64,000 bases of DNA from Cyanidiococcus yangmingshanensis (Eukaryota > Rhodophyta > Bangiophyceae > Cyanidiales > Cyanidiaceae), in NCBI GenBank assembly GCA_013995675.1, contig VWRR01000003.1, forward strand, positions 558,001-622,000, read 5' to 3'. The notes under the pieces are model-generated. The model was given only the letters and a program-made list of their open reading frames with translations. It made no database searches and was not told the origin of the DNA. Position 1 is the stretch's first letter. Every line of letters starts with the position of its first letter. The position numbers and the translations under genes are program-made. Shown here piece by piece: positions 5,122 to 15,115 of this stretch.

Positions 5122-5961
5122 ATGCCCCGGTTTGGGCAGCCATAGCGCGCCCTCATCAGCCTGTTTATTTTCCATGACCGGTATTGGCTTCGCTAGCAAG
5201 GGAGCCCGAGCGACATACTACACATTCGACTCGTCATCGTAACCAGGAAAAGGTCACAGAGATGGTCACGGACCTTTCAGACAATCCATACACGCTTGCA
5301 CTCCGGCGTTTTGCATCTCGGGGGACGTTGCGCTTCCCAGGACATCCTGTCCATTCCAGACGATAATGAATGCTCATAAATCGGTTTGAACAATTCCCTC
5401 GACACGCATGTATAAGAATCGGTTCTTTTTCATTTCCTCTGCAGAGACGTGTCCACAACCACACATTTCCTCTCATAAATTGGTTTGAACAATTCTCTCG
5501 ACACGCATGTATAAGAATCGATTCTCGACACGGATCCGTCGCCTTCTCACTGCGTGCCGAATTCGACGGCGCCGATCGCGACCGCTGGTTGACCGACGGC
5601 CACGATCGGACGCGAATCGCTGCCAATCTTTTGGGCGCACACCGGTCGTCGAGCGCAAACGCTTTAGGGCCGCGTCCATGGGCATGCGCACGTGCCGGAT
5701 AGAATGTGTGCGGTTTCAATAACGGCCCTTGGGTGAAGCGCAATGACTACATCAAGGGGTGTGATGAGTACCCAAGTGCGTGCATCTCGTTGGTGAAGCG
5801 ATGGTGGAATGGCCAGTGCTCATGAGTGAATATCCGATCGGTGTGGGCATGACGTTGGCACAACCGCGAACGAGCGTCGCGGTCAATGCTGTTGCAAACC
5901 CGATGCGTGTAGTTTTATTGACAACGCTGGTCAAACTGTGGTCAAGTTGAGTGTAGTCATC
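5122..5961. other. Intergenic region upstream of the TALE homeobox gene
   Basis: About 840 bp lie between the golgin gene and the TALE homeobox gene. They contain a pair of 54-bp direct repeats, annotated separately, and no convincing gene. The stretch is the presumptive promoter region of the homeobox gene. Confidence 0.5.
5373..5525. repeat. 54-bp direct repeat pair
   Basis: Two near-identical 54-bp copies occur at 5373-5426 and 5472-5525, 99 bp apart start to start. Both contain GGTTTGAACAATTC or its one-base variant followed by CGACACGCATGTATAAGAATC. There are only three or four mismatches. They lie 440 to 590 bp upstream of the TALE homeobox ATG. They may be duplicated regulatory sequence or a simple recent duplication. 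Confidence 0.85.
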
Positions 5962-6951
5962 ATGACTTACAACAGGGTAACCACCGGAATGTTGTCAGGG
6001 ACATCGACGTGCCACACGCCATCGGCTACCGCGACGAGTGCGGATGGCGAACAGGCGCCAGTTTTACCGGTGAATCCTGCTGAAGAGGATGTTTGGTTGT
6101 CACCGACGAGCGAGCAACTGGCTGTTCGGTTGGGTGCCGATGACATTGAACCGGTGCTTTTTGCAGACTCAGTGCCACTGGTGGCGGCGAGTGCAGCAGC
6201 TCCAGGTCACTGTTCGCGTAGCCGTCGACAACCGCCAAATGAGGCCTTGCCTGTTGGGCCAGACGGCATCGTTGCCACCGACTGCAGCGATGCGATTCCA
6301 GAAACGGAGCCTATGTGCATTCAGCGAGGTCAGGTGCGTCCATGTTTCTCGACGGCCTCTGCTGCAACCACCCAAAGGCGACGAGCCGCTGTCTCCGCAT
6401 CTACGGCGAGCTCGACAAGGAACATGCATGGACTGCCTTCGGGACGCTTCAGAGCGAGCAATGCTGCTGCTGCAACAAACGAGTCTATCATGAGCAGATC
6501 ACAGCGCTTATCACGTCCGGGTTTCGTATCCGAGACCGCGACATGGCAGCCGATTCGGACGAGTACCGCAGAGAGCTCGACTCGAGAGCGACTTTGTTCC
6601 GGGTCGTTTGGGCCACCACCGTCCTGGGCAGAAAGACCGACGCGAGTGTACTCAAGGACCGGAGGAGAGCGCGCCTGGAATGCAGTTGCCTTTTCCGACG
6701 CCCAGTCCATACGAGCTCATCCGCAAAAGGCGTCACGAAAACGGACCCCGCTACCAAAACACGCCGTGGCTCTCTTTGAGGCCTGGGCTCGGGCACACTG
6801 GGACCATCCATATCCAAGCGATGCCGTGAAAATTCAACTCAGTGAGCAGACTGGTGTTGCCGTGAAACAGGTGTCCAACTGGTTTATCAACTTTCGCAAA
6901 CGCTCCTGGAACGGCAGACAACCCGTCCACCGGCACCCCGCGCTGCCGTGA
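5962..6951 (+). CDS. TALE-class homeodomain protein
   Basis: The protein has 329 residues from the first ATG of the frame. The first 250 or so residues are low in predicted structure, rich in Ala, Ser, Thr and Arg, and match no family I can name. Residues about 262 to 322 are a TALE homeodomain. It shows the three-residue loop extension with HPYPSD between helices 1 and 2, then LSEQTGVAVKQVSNWFINF as helix 2 and recognition helix 3, with Trp48, Phe49, Ile50, Asn51 and Arg53 in place. Ile50 with Asn51 is the hallmark of KNOX, BELL, PBX and fungal HD1 relatives. No KNOX, BELL or PBC domain was recognised upstream. Between 6315 and 6779 another frame also looks protein-like, so the middle of the product is uncertain. 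The next gene is a second homeobox gene on the same strand. Confidence 0.85.
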   Translation: MTYNRVTTGMLSGTSTCHTPSATATSADGEQAPVLPVNPAEEDVWLSPTSEQLAVRLGADDIEPVLFADSVPLVAASAAAPGHCSRSRRQPPNEALPVGPDGIVATDCSDAIPETEPMCIQRGQVRPCFSTASAATTQRRRAAVSASTASSTRNMHGLPSGRFRASNAAAATNESIMSRSQRLSRPGFVSETATWQPIRTSTAESSTRERLCSGSFGPPPSWAERPTRVYSRTGGERAWNAVAFSDAQSIRAHPQKASRKRTPLPKHAVALFEAWARAHWDHPYPSDAVKIQLSEQTGVAVKQVSNWFINFRKRSWNGRQPVHRHPALP

Positions 6952-7603
6952 GCGACGCTTAACAAGTGCAAAACCCGTTCCGTTTTCCGAGAGATCATGC
7001 AAGAATATGCAGAACCGTCGTTGCTGCTTGATCAGATCAAGACGTCAAAAGCGCCCTGGCCTTTATGATTGAGTGATGTTCGTGCAGCTCAGTCTCTGGC
7101 AGCGGCGTCGTTTCGCAGGGTTCAGCTCGCCTCGCAGCACTGATGAGCGGTCCCCTCGCTTCCCTCTTTGCCTGGAGTGATAAAACAAGTTTAATCCTAA
7201 AATTGTAACAGAGAATGCCAGTCGATTGAGCGCCTCTGGCTGTGGGTATCGACGAGACCGCTCGGCCTTTCGAAGTGAACCATCTGTGTTGGACAGGGTC
7301 AGCGAGGACAACAGCCGTGTCTGGTCACCGGCCCCAAAGCATATGGTTCCGTATCATCATCAGCAGTCCGTATTCAATAGTCCATTGAAACGAATCATCG
7401 GCAGAGCGCGGGTTTCCACCTGGGTCAGACTCTGACCTGCCGTCCGGATGACCGTGGTCATATCGGCTCAGGTGAACGCAAAACCGAAACCTCCCAGCGA
7501 TGCTACTCATCGGCAAGAAATTGAGGCTTCTTAGAACGTCCACAATTCGTTTCTTTGGGATACATAGAGTCGGTTTGGTGTCTAACGTTTGCTCCGCTCT
7601 GGA
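6952..7603. other. Intergenic region between the two homeobox genes
   Basis: About 650 bp separate the TALE and the non-TALE homeobox genes. Only short unsupported open frames are present, and no distinct repeat was seen. It should contain the promoter of the second homeobox gene. Confidence 0.45.
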
Positions 7604-9163
7604 ATGACCTTTCCACGAGCGCATTTGGGTCGGATCCGGACTTGCACGCGGCAGCGAAGAGCGTGGACGAGTCGAGTTTCACCGACCAGTTCGCCAGAGC
7701 CACCAGCAGACGCTGCTCGTTGGGTTGAACAGCTATGCCAAATGGCTAGCGCATGGTTTTGTGCTGACCCAGGGGCAGCGCACGACGTCCAGTCTAGGAC
7801 GTTTCTCTGGTACTCGTCACCATGCAGATCGTATGCAACGGATCGATCACGGACTTGGTCGGTAGAGGCTGATGGCGTGTGTACCGCAACGATGGTATTG
7901 TCAGCACTCGTTGAAGAAGCTATCTATAGCGGCGCTTTGTTAGGCGTACACCTGGTCGGCGGTGCCGCACAGGGAGAGCAGAGCGTCCAGGGCGACAGCG
8001 CCGGTGCGTTATGGTGTCCTCGACCAGTCGATTCGACAGAGTTCACTCCTATATCAGCGACGCTGTCTTCGATGCTGCAATATGATGCGCTGCTGGTCAC
8101 TCGTTGGCTTCTCGCTGAGATCCAACAGCGCATGGGAATGCAGCCAATGATTCATATCTCCGACAAGGACCGTGAGCTCGTCGCGGCGTTACAAAAACTG
8201 GTGCGTTTCCGGCTCGTTTTCGATTCGTGCTGGCAGCGAGCGCGCCAGTACAGTCGGTGGATGCGGCGAACGGGCTGCGAAAGAGGACAACCCGCTTGCA
8301 CGACCCCTTCCGCCATTTCATCGCCAACCGCTCAAGCTATTCAACCAGAGAGGATGCTGGCCGAGGTCAGCGTCTCGACGGCGTGGATTCAAGATACGCT
8401 CCGCTTGGACGATGTGCATCGTCAAAGTCACGATATAATTGGATCTGCAGCAGTCGATTTCCTGAACCCGGTCCAGCCTTCCAATGAATGCAACGCGAGC
8501 GTACTACCAGAGGCACAAAGCCGGCTGCGCCAACCTCAGAGTATGTCACCAACTGCAAGTCAGTGTGAGGCCTATCCCCCGGTGACTACACCGGAGCCAA
8601 CTCGATATCCCGGGAATTTAGCGGATGCGACGTGCTCAGCTTCTGACGAGCGACTGTCATTGATTCCAGAAACTCGCGTCGCAGCATCTTCGCCGCAGGA
8701 CTCCAAGGCGACAAACCCGTTCCCGTCAGTGGAGTTGTGTACACCGCGCGAAGTTGAAGAGTTGGAAAGTCACTTGACAGCAATCCAGTCGCCAGCATCG
8801 GCAGGTAGCCCCGTCCGGAGCACCTCTGCCGAAACGATACCTAGAGAGTCGCCTCAATCCGCCAGAGCGTTCTTTGCGGCTGTGCTTGCGCGTTATGGCG
8901 AAGCGTTCCTCATGGAACAGCTGTGCACGGGATCCGGAACTGGTATGGTCGGAAGTGAACGTCACAAACTCTCTCGCCACGCGGAGGCAGTACTCACTGA
9001 TCATTACAAACGCGTTAGCGTTTATCCGTCGGCGTCGGAACGTGAGCAGCTCGCGAGGAAAACTGGGCTGAATCGTAAGCAGATCTGTTGGTGGTTCTCT
9101 AATCGTCGCATGCGAGAGAAAAGAGGTCGACTTGGACGCCGACGCTCACCCAAACATTTCTAA
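7604..9163 (+). CDS. Non-TALE homeodomain protein
   Basis: The 519-residue protein starts at the ATG at 7604. The long N-terminal part is of unknown family: it contains a helical, hydrophobic region around residues 120 to 215 and then a Ser/Pro/Gln-rich linker. A homeodomain occupies roughly residues 450 to 510. It shows RHAEAVLTDHYKR, then a loop with VYPSASEREQLARKTGLNR, and recognition helix QICWWFSNRRMREKR, in which Trp48, Phe49, Asn51 and Arg53 are conserved and position 50 is Ser. The loop before the YPS motif seems one residue longer than in standard 60-residue homeodomains, but the TALE signature is absent. A basic tail follows. It is a DNA-binding transcription factor by family. The adjacent TALE gene makes heterodimerisation a reasonable but untested idea. 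Confidence 0.85.
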   Translation: MTFPRAHLGRIRTCTRQRRAWTSRVSPTSSPEPPADAARWVEQLCQMASAWFCADPGAAHDVQSRTFLWYSSPCRSYATDRSRTWSVEADGVCTATMVLSALVEEAIYSGALLGVHLVGGAAQGEQSVQGDSAGALWCPRPVDSTEFTPISATLSSMLQYDALLVTRWLLAEIQQRMGMQPMIHISDKDRELVAALQKLVRFRLVFDSCWQRARQYSRWMRRTGCERGQPACTTPSAISSPTAQAIQPERMLAEVSVSTAWIQDTLRLDDVHRQSHDIIGSAAVDFLNPVQPSNECNASVLPEAQSRLRQPQSMSPTASQCEAYPPVTTPEPTRYPGNLADATCSASDERLSLIPETRVAASSPQDSKATNPFPSVELCTPREVEELESHLTAIQSPASAGSPVRSTSAETIPRESPQSARAFFAAVLARYGEAFLMEQLCTGSGTGMVGSERHKLSRHAEAVLTDHYKRVSVYPSASEREQLARKTGLNRKQICWWFSNRRMREKRGRLGRRRSPKHF

Positions 9164-12405: not shown

Positions 12406-13327
12406 TATCGTAAGCGCATACACGCATCATTCGCTGCAAGAGAAAGTTTCCCTGTTCTGCGAGCTTGCGTGAAGACAGAGTTGGCGTGCACTTTTTTGGA
12501 TCTATGTCGGTAACACCAAGTGCAAGATGGTCTGTCGCGTGAAGTAAAGGCCGAGCACGGTTGACCGTCTTCGAATGCGAGGCAACGGACGAACTGCGAA
12601 TAAGTCGCGCAGCTTGAGAAATGTTGTCTAAGCGAGGCTCGTGTGTGCCCGTTCATGGTGTTCAGCATCAACGATGCGCTGCTCGAGGAATTCCGCACTA
12701 TCGGTATATTTTGTGCTGACGAACAAGAAGCAGGATGATGAACGTCCGTGTTATGCTTTGGTGGTGAGCCCTCCACACATACCCTATGGGGTTCGGTCCA
12801 GTGGGCGAAATGAACCATGGCCAGAACTGCATATGTTCCAGCCGAGTAACGATCAGCTGGTCATCTTGCTTCAACACATTGGGTACAGCACTACCTGCCT
12901 TTCACAGGAAACACCAGTCAGAGCAAAGCACGCTTCCGGAAAGTATGTGAAACCAAAACGACATGAACCTAGGACCAGACCACAGAGCATACGCTCTCTA
13001 GTTTCTGCGCTCTACAGATAAACAAAGTTGCATTCTGAGAGTGTTCATGATTCCTTTTGTTCGGCGGTGTAAGAAGCTTCGACTTGGAGCCGTACATGCG
13101 TTCAACGAGGTAACAAGCTCTGGTCGTGGCGGGTAACGAGTCCAGAAACTTGCCACCAACGCCATGTATCCGTCGAGAGCATGCGCAAACGAGCCACAAA
13201 CCGCTAGCTCAGGGGCTTGATATGGGTCGCCTATCCACGGCCTGTGTCGTACGCTTCACGGTCCAGAGAAAGTCTTTGTCAGCAGAAACTATCTCGTCTG
13301 CCGTAAAGAGAACTTTTTCGTTTTTTC
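12406..13327. other. Intergenic region
   Basis: About 920 bp lie between eS19 and the EgtB-like gene, both on the plus strand. Short frames, such as one of 126 codons from 12641, show no family resemblance. It should hold the EgtB-like promoter. Confidence 0.4.
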
Positions 13328-15115
13328 ATGCTCAACTCTAGTTATGGAGAACTGGAAAGGGCTTGTCGTTCGAGACTGTCCACTGAGAACGATTCGGAGC
13401 TGCTGCGAGGCTGGTTGCCGCCTTCCCAGGCATCGATCGAGTTGATCTCGACAGGCTCGGACGCGGAAGCGTCGTTGAAAGATGCAGGACCGATAGAGGC
13501 ACGTGCCGCGATAGCGAGCGCGTTCGAAGCCGTTCGCAAGGCCTGGGAACAACTGGACGCCGTCTTCAGAGCGTTTTTCGGGCCACCTCTTTCACAGACG
13601 TTGCTGCTGAAACCAATAAGTCTGCGCCATCCGTTTCTCTTCTATTTGGGACACTTGCCTGCCTTTGCCTGGAACCGATACCAATCGCTCCTTCAGCCGC
13701 AGCATTCGTTGGTAGTATCGTCGTCGCTCACGATGGACGAGTTGCTATCGTTCGGCAAACTCTTCGAGCGGGGCATGGACCCGGATGTCGACGACCCATC
13801 CCAATGTCACTGGCATTCTCAAGTGCCAGAGGCGGTAGAAGACTGGCCATCGGTATCCAAGGTGGCAGCCTATCGGGACTATATTCGACAGGATCTCTTT
13901 CATCGTGTGCAACAGTGGTGCTACGCTCCCCGTAGCAGCAGCCCGCCTGCAAACGAATGCTTTACGCTCCTGAGGACCATCGCTGAACACGAGTGGATGC
14001 ACACTGAGACACTGCTGTACATGGTGCACCAGTTGGATGCGCTCTCCAAGGCACCGCTCCAGGCGCAGACGCATCCATGGAAAAGACAAAGCGCTGCGGA
14101 CTCGTCTCCGAATGATTGTGAGCAGAGAGGTTTCATGCCATTGATTGGGACCTTCGTTTCTATTGAAACTGAGGAGAATGCTTCTCTTGGTAAGAATCCA
14201 GAGGAGAAGTCTCCACATGCGTTTCAGTTTGCTTGGGACAATGAAATGCCCCAAGTGCAGCGGACGATTCCTCGACGGCTTCTGGTCCAAGAGTACCCGG
14301 TCACAAACTCTCAATTTTTGAACTTTGTCAAAGATGGTGGCTACCGAGATCTTCATCGGTACTGGTTGGATGAGAGCGACCGACTCTGGTGTGCAAAAAA
14401 CAGTCGGCAGTGTCCGCAATTCTGGCGAGCAATCCATCGTCCAGATAGAGCCAATGACACGCTCGCTTTCCATGTTGTGCACCTGGACGGACGACTCAGC
14501 AAGCATTCTATCGGGGATCCTGCATGTACGGAGAACAACTGGCCGGTGTATATCAGTCTTGCCGAGGCTCGTGCCTATGCAAACTGGGTATGCGTCAATG
14601 CAAGACATGCCCAGAGCCGAGAGATCGGTTGGCGTCTGCCGACCGAAGCCGAGTGGCAGTACATCGCTGACGGAGCGTACCCGAAAACATCGACTGGAGA
14701 CGGGAACTCGGACTCCGCGATGGATGGCAATCATGGCTTTCGTCATTGGGGGCCTATAGATACCTATCAGTCACCGAATTCCTCTCGATGGAATGTTCGT
14801 GATCTCGTGGGAAACGGCTGGGAGTGGACCGATACTCCGTTCCAGCCCCTAGATCCGGATCGATTTCAACCAACACCGTTGTATCCAGAGTATTCGGCGG
14901 ACTTTTTCGATCAGAAACACTTTGTTCTGAAAGGAGCATCCTGGGCCACAGGAGCGCCACTCATTCGACCGACTTTCCGCAACTGGTACCAGGCTCACTA
15001 TCCCTATGTTTTTGCCAAGTTCCGACTCGTATGCGACGTTTCTCCTGTCGAACTGAGTGATCGTTCAGCAGCAGTGCGCAACGAAGCACCATGTTCTCAT
15101 GACGCATCTGGGTAA
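13328..15115 (+). CDS. EgtB-like non-heme iron protein (DinB plus formylglycine-generating-like domains)
   Basis: The 595-residue protein has the two-domain plan of the EgtB/OvoA sulfoxide-synthase family, which forms a C-S bond between a histidine derivative and a thiol using Fe(II) and oxygen. The N-terminal DinB-like part contains LRHPFLFYLGHLPAF, whose His fits an iron ligand, and EHEWMHTETL, which gives the HxxxHxE ligand pattern. The segment FERGMDPDVDDPSQCHWHS is shared with fungal and algal members. The C-terminal domain carries WRLPTEAEWQYIADG, LVGNGWEWTDTPF and a conserved RNWYQAHYPYVFAKFRLV end. No SAM-dependent histidine methyltransferase domain is present, so if it serves ergothioneine synthesis the methylation step must be encoded elsewhere. 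The exact substrate is not predictable from sequence. Confidence 0.82.
   Translation: MLNSSYGELERACRSRLSTENDSELLRGWLPPSQASIELISTGSDAEASLKDAGPIEARAAIASAFEAVRKAWEQLDAVFRAFFGPPLSQTLLLKPISLRHPFLFYLGHLPAFAWNRYQSLLQPQHSLVVSSSLTMDELLSFGKLFERGMDPDVDDPSQCHWHSQVPEAVEDWPSVSKVAAYRDYIRQDLFHRVQQWCYAPRSSSPPANECFTLLRTIAEHEWMHTETLLYMVHQLDALSKAPLQAQTHPWKRQSAADSSPNDCEQRGFMPLIGTFVSIETEENASLGKNPEEKSPHAFQFAWDNEMPQVQRTIPRRLLVQEYPVTNSQFLNFVKDGGYRDLHRYWLDESDRLWCAKNSRQCPQFWRAIHRPDRANDTLAFHVVHLDGRLSKHSIGDPACTENNWPVYISLAEARAYANWVCVNARHAQSREIGWRLPTEAEWQYIADGAYPKTSTGDGNSDSAMDGNHGFRHWGPIDTYQSPNSSRWNVRDLVGNGWEWTDTPFQPLDPDRFQPTPLYPEYSADFFDQKHFVLKGASWATGAPLIRPTFRNWYQAHYPYVFAKFRLVCDVSPVELSDRSAAVRNEAPCSHDASG

Follow-up and report, generated by a model that had tools for sequence, protein, structure and literature searches.

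Analysis of a 64,000-nucleotide window of the red alga Cyanidiococcus yangmingshanensis (positions 558,001 to 622,000 of contig VWRR01000003.1, here called C14; G000:C14:558001-622000), part of a 12.07-Mb genome in 20 contigs, revealed two homeobox genes lying side by side on the same strand. In our preferred reading, to which we give a probability of roughly 0.58, the first (gene 1) is a KNOX gene, probably of the KNOX-Red1 class, whose product pairs with a BELL-like protein for the diploid programme, the second (gene 2) is a separate gene, and the pair is not a mating-type locus. Gene 1 would encode a KNOX-type TALE transcription factor acting after mating; its protein would pair with the product of a BELL-like TALE gene that precedes gene 1 on the contig by 29 kb, and the dimer would switch on the diploid programme, each of these two genes probably being one half of the ploidy switch. 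Gene 2 would be a homeodomain regulator with its own targets, probably kept beside gene 1 in one or more other lineages. The features of the locus are as follows.

5962..6951, + strand: gene 1, KNOX-like TALE homeodomain protein of 329 residues, homeodomain near the C-terminus (open reading frame and Pfam)
6736..6915, + strand: gene 1 TALE homeodomain, about residues 259-318, with HPYPSD loop and WFINFRKRSW helix 3 (coordinates computed from residues)
6952..7603, no strand: intergenic gap of 652 bp without a supported gene (open reading frame listing)
7604..9163, + strand: gene 2, homeodomain protein of 519 residues with a 61-residue homeodomain, orthologue CCYA_CCYA02G0544
7709..8269, + strand: gene 2 N-terminal helical region, residues 36-222, partly conserved, with model confidence uneven and in parts low
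8954..9133, + strand: gene 2 homeodomain, about residues 451-510 (coordinates computed from residues)
5373..5426, + strand: 54-bp direct repeat, copy 1, upstream of gene 1
5472..5525, + strand: 54-bp direct repeat, copy 2, 94% identical to copy 1

Both reading frames are uninterrupted, that of gene 1 being open from 5830 to 6951 with an ATG at 5962 (MTYNR) and that of gene 2 from 7586 to 9163 with an ATG at 7604. In P0005, a homologue of gene 1, the protein starts with MTY at this same position, and P0006 also contains MTY here, although its listed start is 31 residues further upstream; for gene 2, the start MTFP is common to P0001 and P0003, and the starts of P0002 and P0010 differ. The distance from the gene 1 stop to the gene 2 ATG is 652 bp, which bears out the earlier observation of two same-strand homeobox genes about 650 bp apart with nothing between them: the only ATG-started open reading frames of at least 40 residues that touch the gap are two on the minus strand, 6834-6998 (54 residues, mostly antisense to gene 1) and 7325-7624 (99 residues), and neither has any support as a gene.

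The TALE identity of gene 1, proposed from its HPYPSD loop and WFIN helix, was upheld by the Pfam matches (Homeobox_KN, 1e-16; Homeodomain, 2.5e-5) and by a distance of 35 residues between homeodomain positions 16 and 48, which is the TALE spacing with three extra residues between helices 1 and 2. Its sequence gives moderate support to a KNOX-like affiliation. The third helix is KNOX-like (NWFINFRKRSW), the homeodomain clusters with three plant KNOX references (support 86/73 in one tree and 78/70 in another), and the best sequence matches among solved structures are PKNOX1 and MEIS (3.1e-12 and below), which are animal kin of KNOX and were counted for that affiliation. Red-algal KNOX proteins comprise two classes, KNOX-Red1, which lacks KN-A, and KNOX-Red2 (Joo et al., 2018, PMC6219170; here and below, literature statements refer to the sections of the papers that were covered). 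The highly conserved residues W19, H23 and K31, used in that study to set apart false KNOX-Red1 members, are all retained in gene 1, as checked by eye. With these residues, a TALE loop, a WFIN helix and further TALE genes beside it in the genome, gene 1 resembles KNOX-Red1 and, by its homeodomain, probably belongs to this class, but KN-B and ELK would be expected if only KN-A were missing, and Pfam found neither.

A genome-wide search, which takes one exon at a time and could overlook split genes, detected six homeobox places passing the Homeodomain cut-off, namely gene 1, gene 2, C14:534730, C6:91523, C5:292035 and C14:167778. The genes at C5:292035 and C14:167778 have ordinary homeodomain spacing, and that at C6:91523 is a TALE gene with YFANKRM. 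The C14:534730 gene (C14:533875-534957), also TALE, shares contig and strand with gene 1 and lies upstream of it by about 29 kb, with about a dozen long open frames, mostly unverified as genes, in between; it contains WFINARVRLWKP, which we take to be a BELL-like motif. Three of the six homeobox genes fall within 33 kb. Cyanidioschyzon (Cz.) merolae has CMR153C (CmKNOX), CMR176C (CmBELL2) and CMH049C (CmBELL1) (PMC6685973). If the letter in such a gene name denotes the chromosome, one KNOX and one BELL seem to be linked there too; we infer the gene-to-gene correspondence with the present genome. The three TALE genes found here equal in number the two KNOX genes and one BELL-related gene published for each of four cyanidiophycean genomes (Hirooka et al., 2026, PMC13353863), a class count that differs from the one KNOX and two BELL genes of PMC6685973.

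The KNOX and BELL labels, like the KNOX-BELL switch itself, are carried over from literature on relatives. As told in PMC13353863, KNOX/BELL deletions in Galdieria inhibit the haploid-to-diploid transition; the same paper reports haploid-dominant KNOX mRNA in Cz. merolae and, in C. yangmingshanensis, for one KNOX, possibly gene 1. The Galdieria and Cyanidioschyzon genes belong to the same algal class and come likewise as three TALE genes per genome; they have been linked to the haploid-diploid switch, whereas genes 1 and 2 are known here from sequence alone, and the covered sections of that paper mention no neighbouring homeobox gene. The original prediction had ascribed ploidy control to the pair, which the Galdieria work makes plausible for gene 1, whereas the sole argument for a share of gene 2 is its proximity.

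Several results weigh against this assignment. The KNOX grouping of gene 1 stays below the starred support level in both trees, and by tree path length its nearest references are MEIS1 and PKNOX1. The C14:534730 gene shares an unresolved fork with BEL1, a BELL clade being neither shown nor rejected (p 0.451). Up to E 10, Pfam listed none of the domains KNOX1, KNOX2, ELK and PBC in gene 1, gene 2 or the C14:534730 and C6 genes, in a search whose program filters discard most matches above about 0.1. A probe with the N-terminal part of MEIS gave nothing above reversed controls; red-algal KN-B may be too diverged for Pfam detection. Moreover, BELL mRNA is haploid-dominant in neither C. yangmingshanensis nor Cz. 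merolae, and neither KNOX nor BELL protein was detected in the C. yangmingshanensis proteome, the authors suggesting that the cultures are vegetative haploids (PMC13353863).

Gene 2 matches both Homeodomain (4.8e-13) and Homeobox_KN (4.7e-10) in Pfam. Its homeodomain comprises 61 residues, compared with 63 in TALE and 60 in ordinary homeodomains, and the distance between positions 16 and 48 is 33 residues, that is, one extra residue rather than the three of TALE proteins, in all four proteins measured (gene 2, P0002, P0003 and P0010). It lacks TALE spacing but is not the clean non-TALE protein that had been described, given its 61 residues and a family profile whose best match among solved structures is Extradenticle (2.9e-9, followed by DUX4 at 6.3e-8 and PBX1 at 1.4e-7). 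To call the two homeodomain classes unrelated was likewise too strong, since those of genes 1 and 2 align at 25/72 identity. As a single sequence, gene 2 matches DUX4 (8.8e-7) and Extradenticle (1.0e-6) alike; in structural comparison of the homeodomain PBX1 is tied with ordinary homeodomains, and the trees place gene 2 on the side of TALE, SIX1 and, in one tree, MATa1 and MATalpha2, with no firm position, TALE and non-TALE descent fitting equally. It shares with the PBC class (Extradenticle/PBX) that best profile match, YPS at the loop and, in the homologue P0010, WFGN, and differs from it in a loop two residues shorter, the absence of a listed PBC domain and weak tree support. AlphaFold models the homeodomain fairly confidently and the N-terminal region (residues 36-222) as helical with uneven confidence; this region folds poorly when modelled alone and yielded no detectable KNOX, MEIS or PBC homology and no informative fold match. 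We propose from its sequence that gene 2 encodes a separate DNA-binding regulator, a homeodomain protein of intermediate loop length.

Gene 2 and CCYA_CCYA02G0544 of Cyanidiococcus yangmingshanensis share 97% identity over the full length of gene 2. The homologues of gene 2 at E 0.001 are P0001, P0002 (46%) and P0003 (36%), and P0010 was added by a search with the homeodomain region only; gene 1 has the homologues P0005 (48%) and P0006 (35%) and three more distant TALE proteins (P0007-P0009). The longest contig given for P0002 has 78,271 bases, as has that given for P0005; with the two taken as one and the same, the gene 1-gene 2 adjacency is probably kept in one or more other lineages. For P0003 and P0006 the contigs differ, with 73,633 and 8,442 bases, respectively. 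Compared with P0001 of another strain, 17 of 519 gene 2 residues differ, one of them in the homeodomain, a comparison that covers gene 2 only and strains of unspecified mating type. Homeodomain residue K469 (9008-9010) is E in all four homologues P0001, P0002, P0003 and P0010, and represents either a strain variant or a sequence error.

Basidiomycete HD1/HD2 mating-type genes, to which the pair had been likened, likewise adjoin each other, but they are divergently transcribed and their alleles are deeply divergent. Here both genes are on the + strand, the 17 differences in gene 2 between two strains of unspecified mating type, the single comparison available, do not match such allelic divergence, and a BELL-like TALE gene lies 29 kb away, all of which counts against the likeness. 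In Cyanidioschyzon, the candidate mating-type region lies between HAP2 (CMK076C) and a leucine-rich repeat (LRR)/TNFR receptor gene (CMK078C) and spans about 1 kb (Cz. merolae 10D) or 2.6 kb (MS1 Ha3), as delimited by comparing two mating types (PMC13353863). In the present genome HAP2 is located at C2:445973-447661, and about 3 kb from it the other strand has two frames that overlap each other and contain LRR and ephrin-receptor/TNFR-like repeats, all within C2:438001-448000; with HAP2 and these frames adjoining there, contig C2 likely carries the counterpart of the candidate region, and the gene 1-gene 2 locus on C14 is not between HAP2 and the receptor. Red-algal sex regions can contain homeobox genes, namely a pair of TALE genes in Bostrychia (as told in PMC13353863) and a conserved male-specific homeobox gene in Gracilaria (PMC12502185); nevertheless, with its own adjacency set against the location of the candidate region on another contig and the few gene 2 differences, the suggestion that the C14 pair is a mating-type or sex-determining locus of the basidiomycete kind is not supported, and we regard it as highly improbable.

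A further alternative, that the products of genes 1 and 2 form a heterodimer, with gene 2 supplying a diverged PBC-like partner for KNOX and the genes being adjacent for joint inheritance and regulation as a ploidy switch, would draw on the Extradenticle match of the gene 2 profile, the helical N-terminal region and the probable adjacency on the 78,271-base contig, and we judge it unlikely. Adjacency may also be incidental, two regulators with independent roles being held together by general synteny, which is somewhat unlikely: 99.4% of the genes of Cz. merolae are shared by this species (PMC13353863), so that shared gene order may carry little information, and among 82 transcription factors of all kinds about 1.3 adjacent pairs are expected by chance. 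Against it, when six homeobox genes were placed at random among 4,884 genes (PMC13353863), contig ends being ignored, an adjacent pair arose in 0.6% of placements, and a cluster of three of the six inside 32.2 kb arose in 0.04%, both tests having been chosen after the fact. Finally, it would be quite a long shot that the BELL-like, KNOX-like and 61-residue genes within 33 kb constitute a three-part Cyanidiales ploidy switch, with gene 2 a loop-contracted TALE descendant competing for, or replacing, one KNOX-BELL partner.

The class and likely role of gene 1 are already known; the new detail is the 61-residue homeodomain of gene 2 and its probably conserved place. The adjoining pair was not met in literature searches that covered parts of papers without supplements, which is weak evidence. 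KNOX/BELL-type ploidy control is regarded as ancient in plants and algae. Here only six homeobox genes were detected, three of which fall within 33 kb, in a group whose haploids can now be transformed (PMC13353863), and with such a small, linked set the origin of TALE pairing becomes testable. The gene 2 loop, between ordinary and TALE lengths, offers a modest but real case for TALE loop gain or loss.

Upstream of gene 1 are a TMF-like coiled-coil gene on the + strand (TMF_TATA_bd, 8.2e-20) and a superoxide dismutase gene on the minus strand, and downstream of gene 2 the minus strand encodes a cytochrome b5-like protein and ribosomal L21e. The starts of the two copies of the 54-bp direct repeat are 99 bp apart, and the copies precede gene 1 by about 440-590 bp; a genome search found two copies, both at this locus, and the repeat is possibly a promoter element or a recent duplication. 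Further along the window, positions 13307-15115 encode an FGE-sulfatase-domain protein (Pfam, 1.2e-31) that by eye resembles EgtB-type ergothioneine enzymes.
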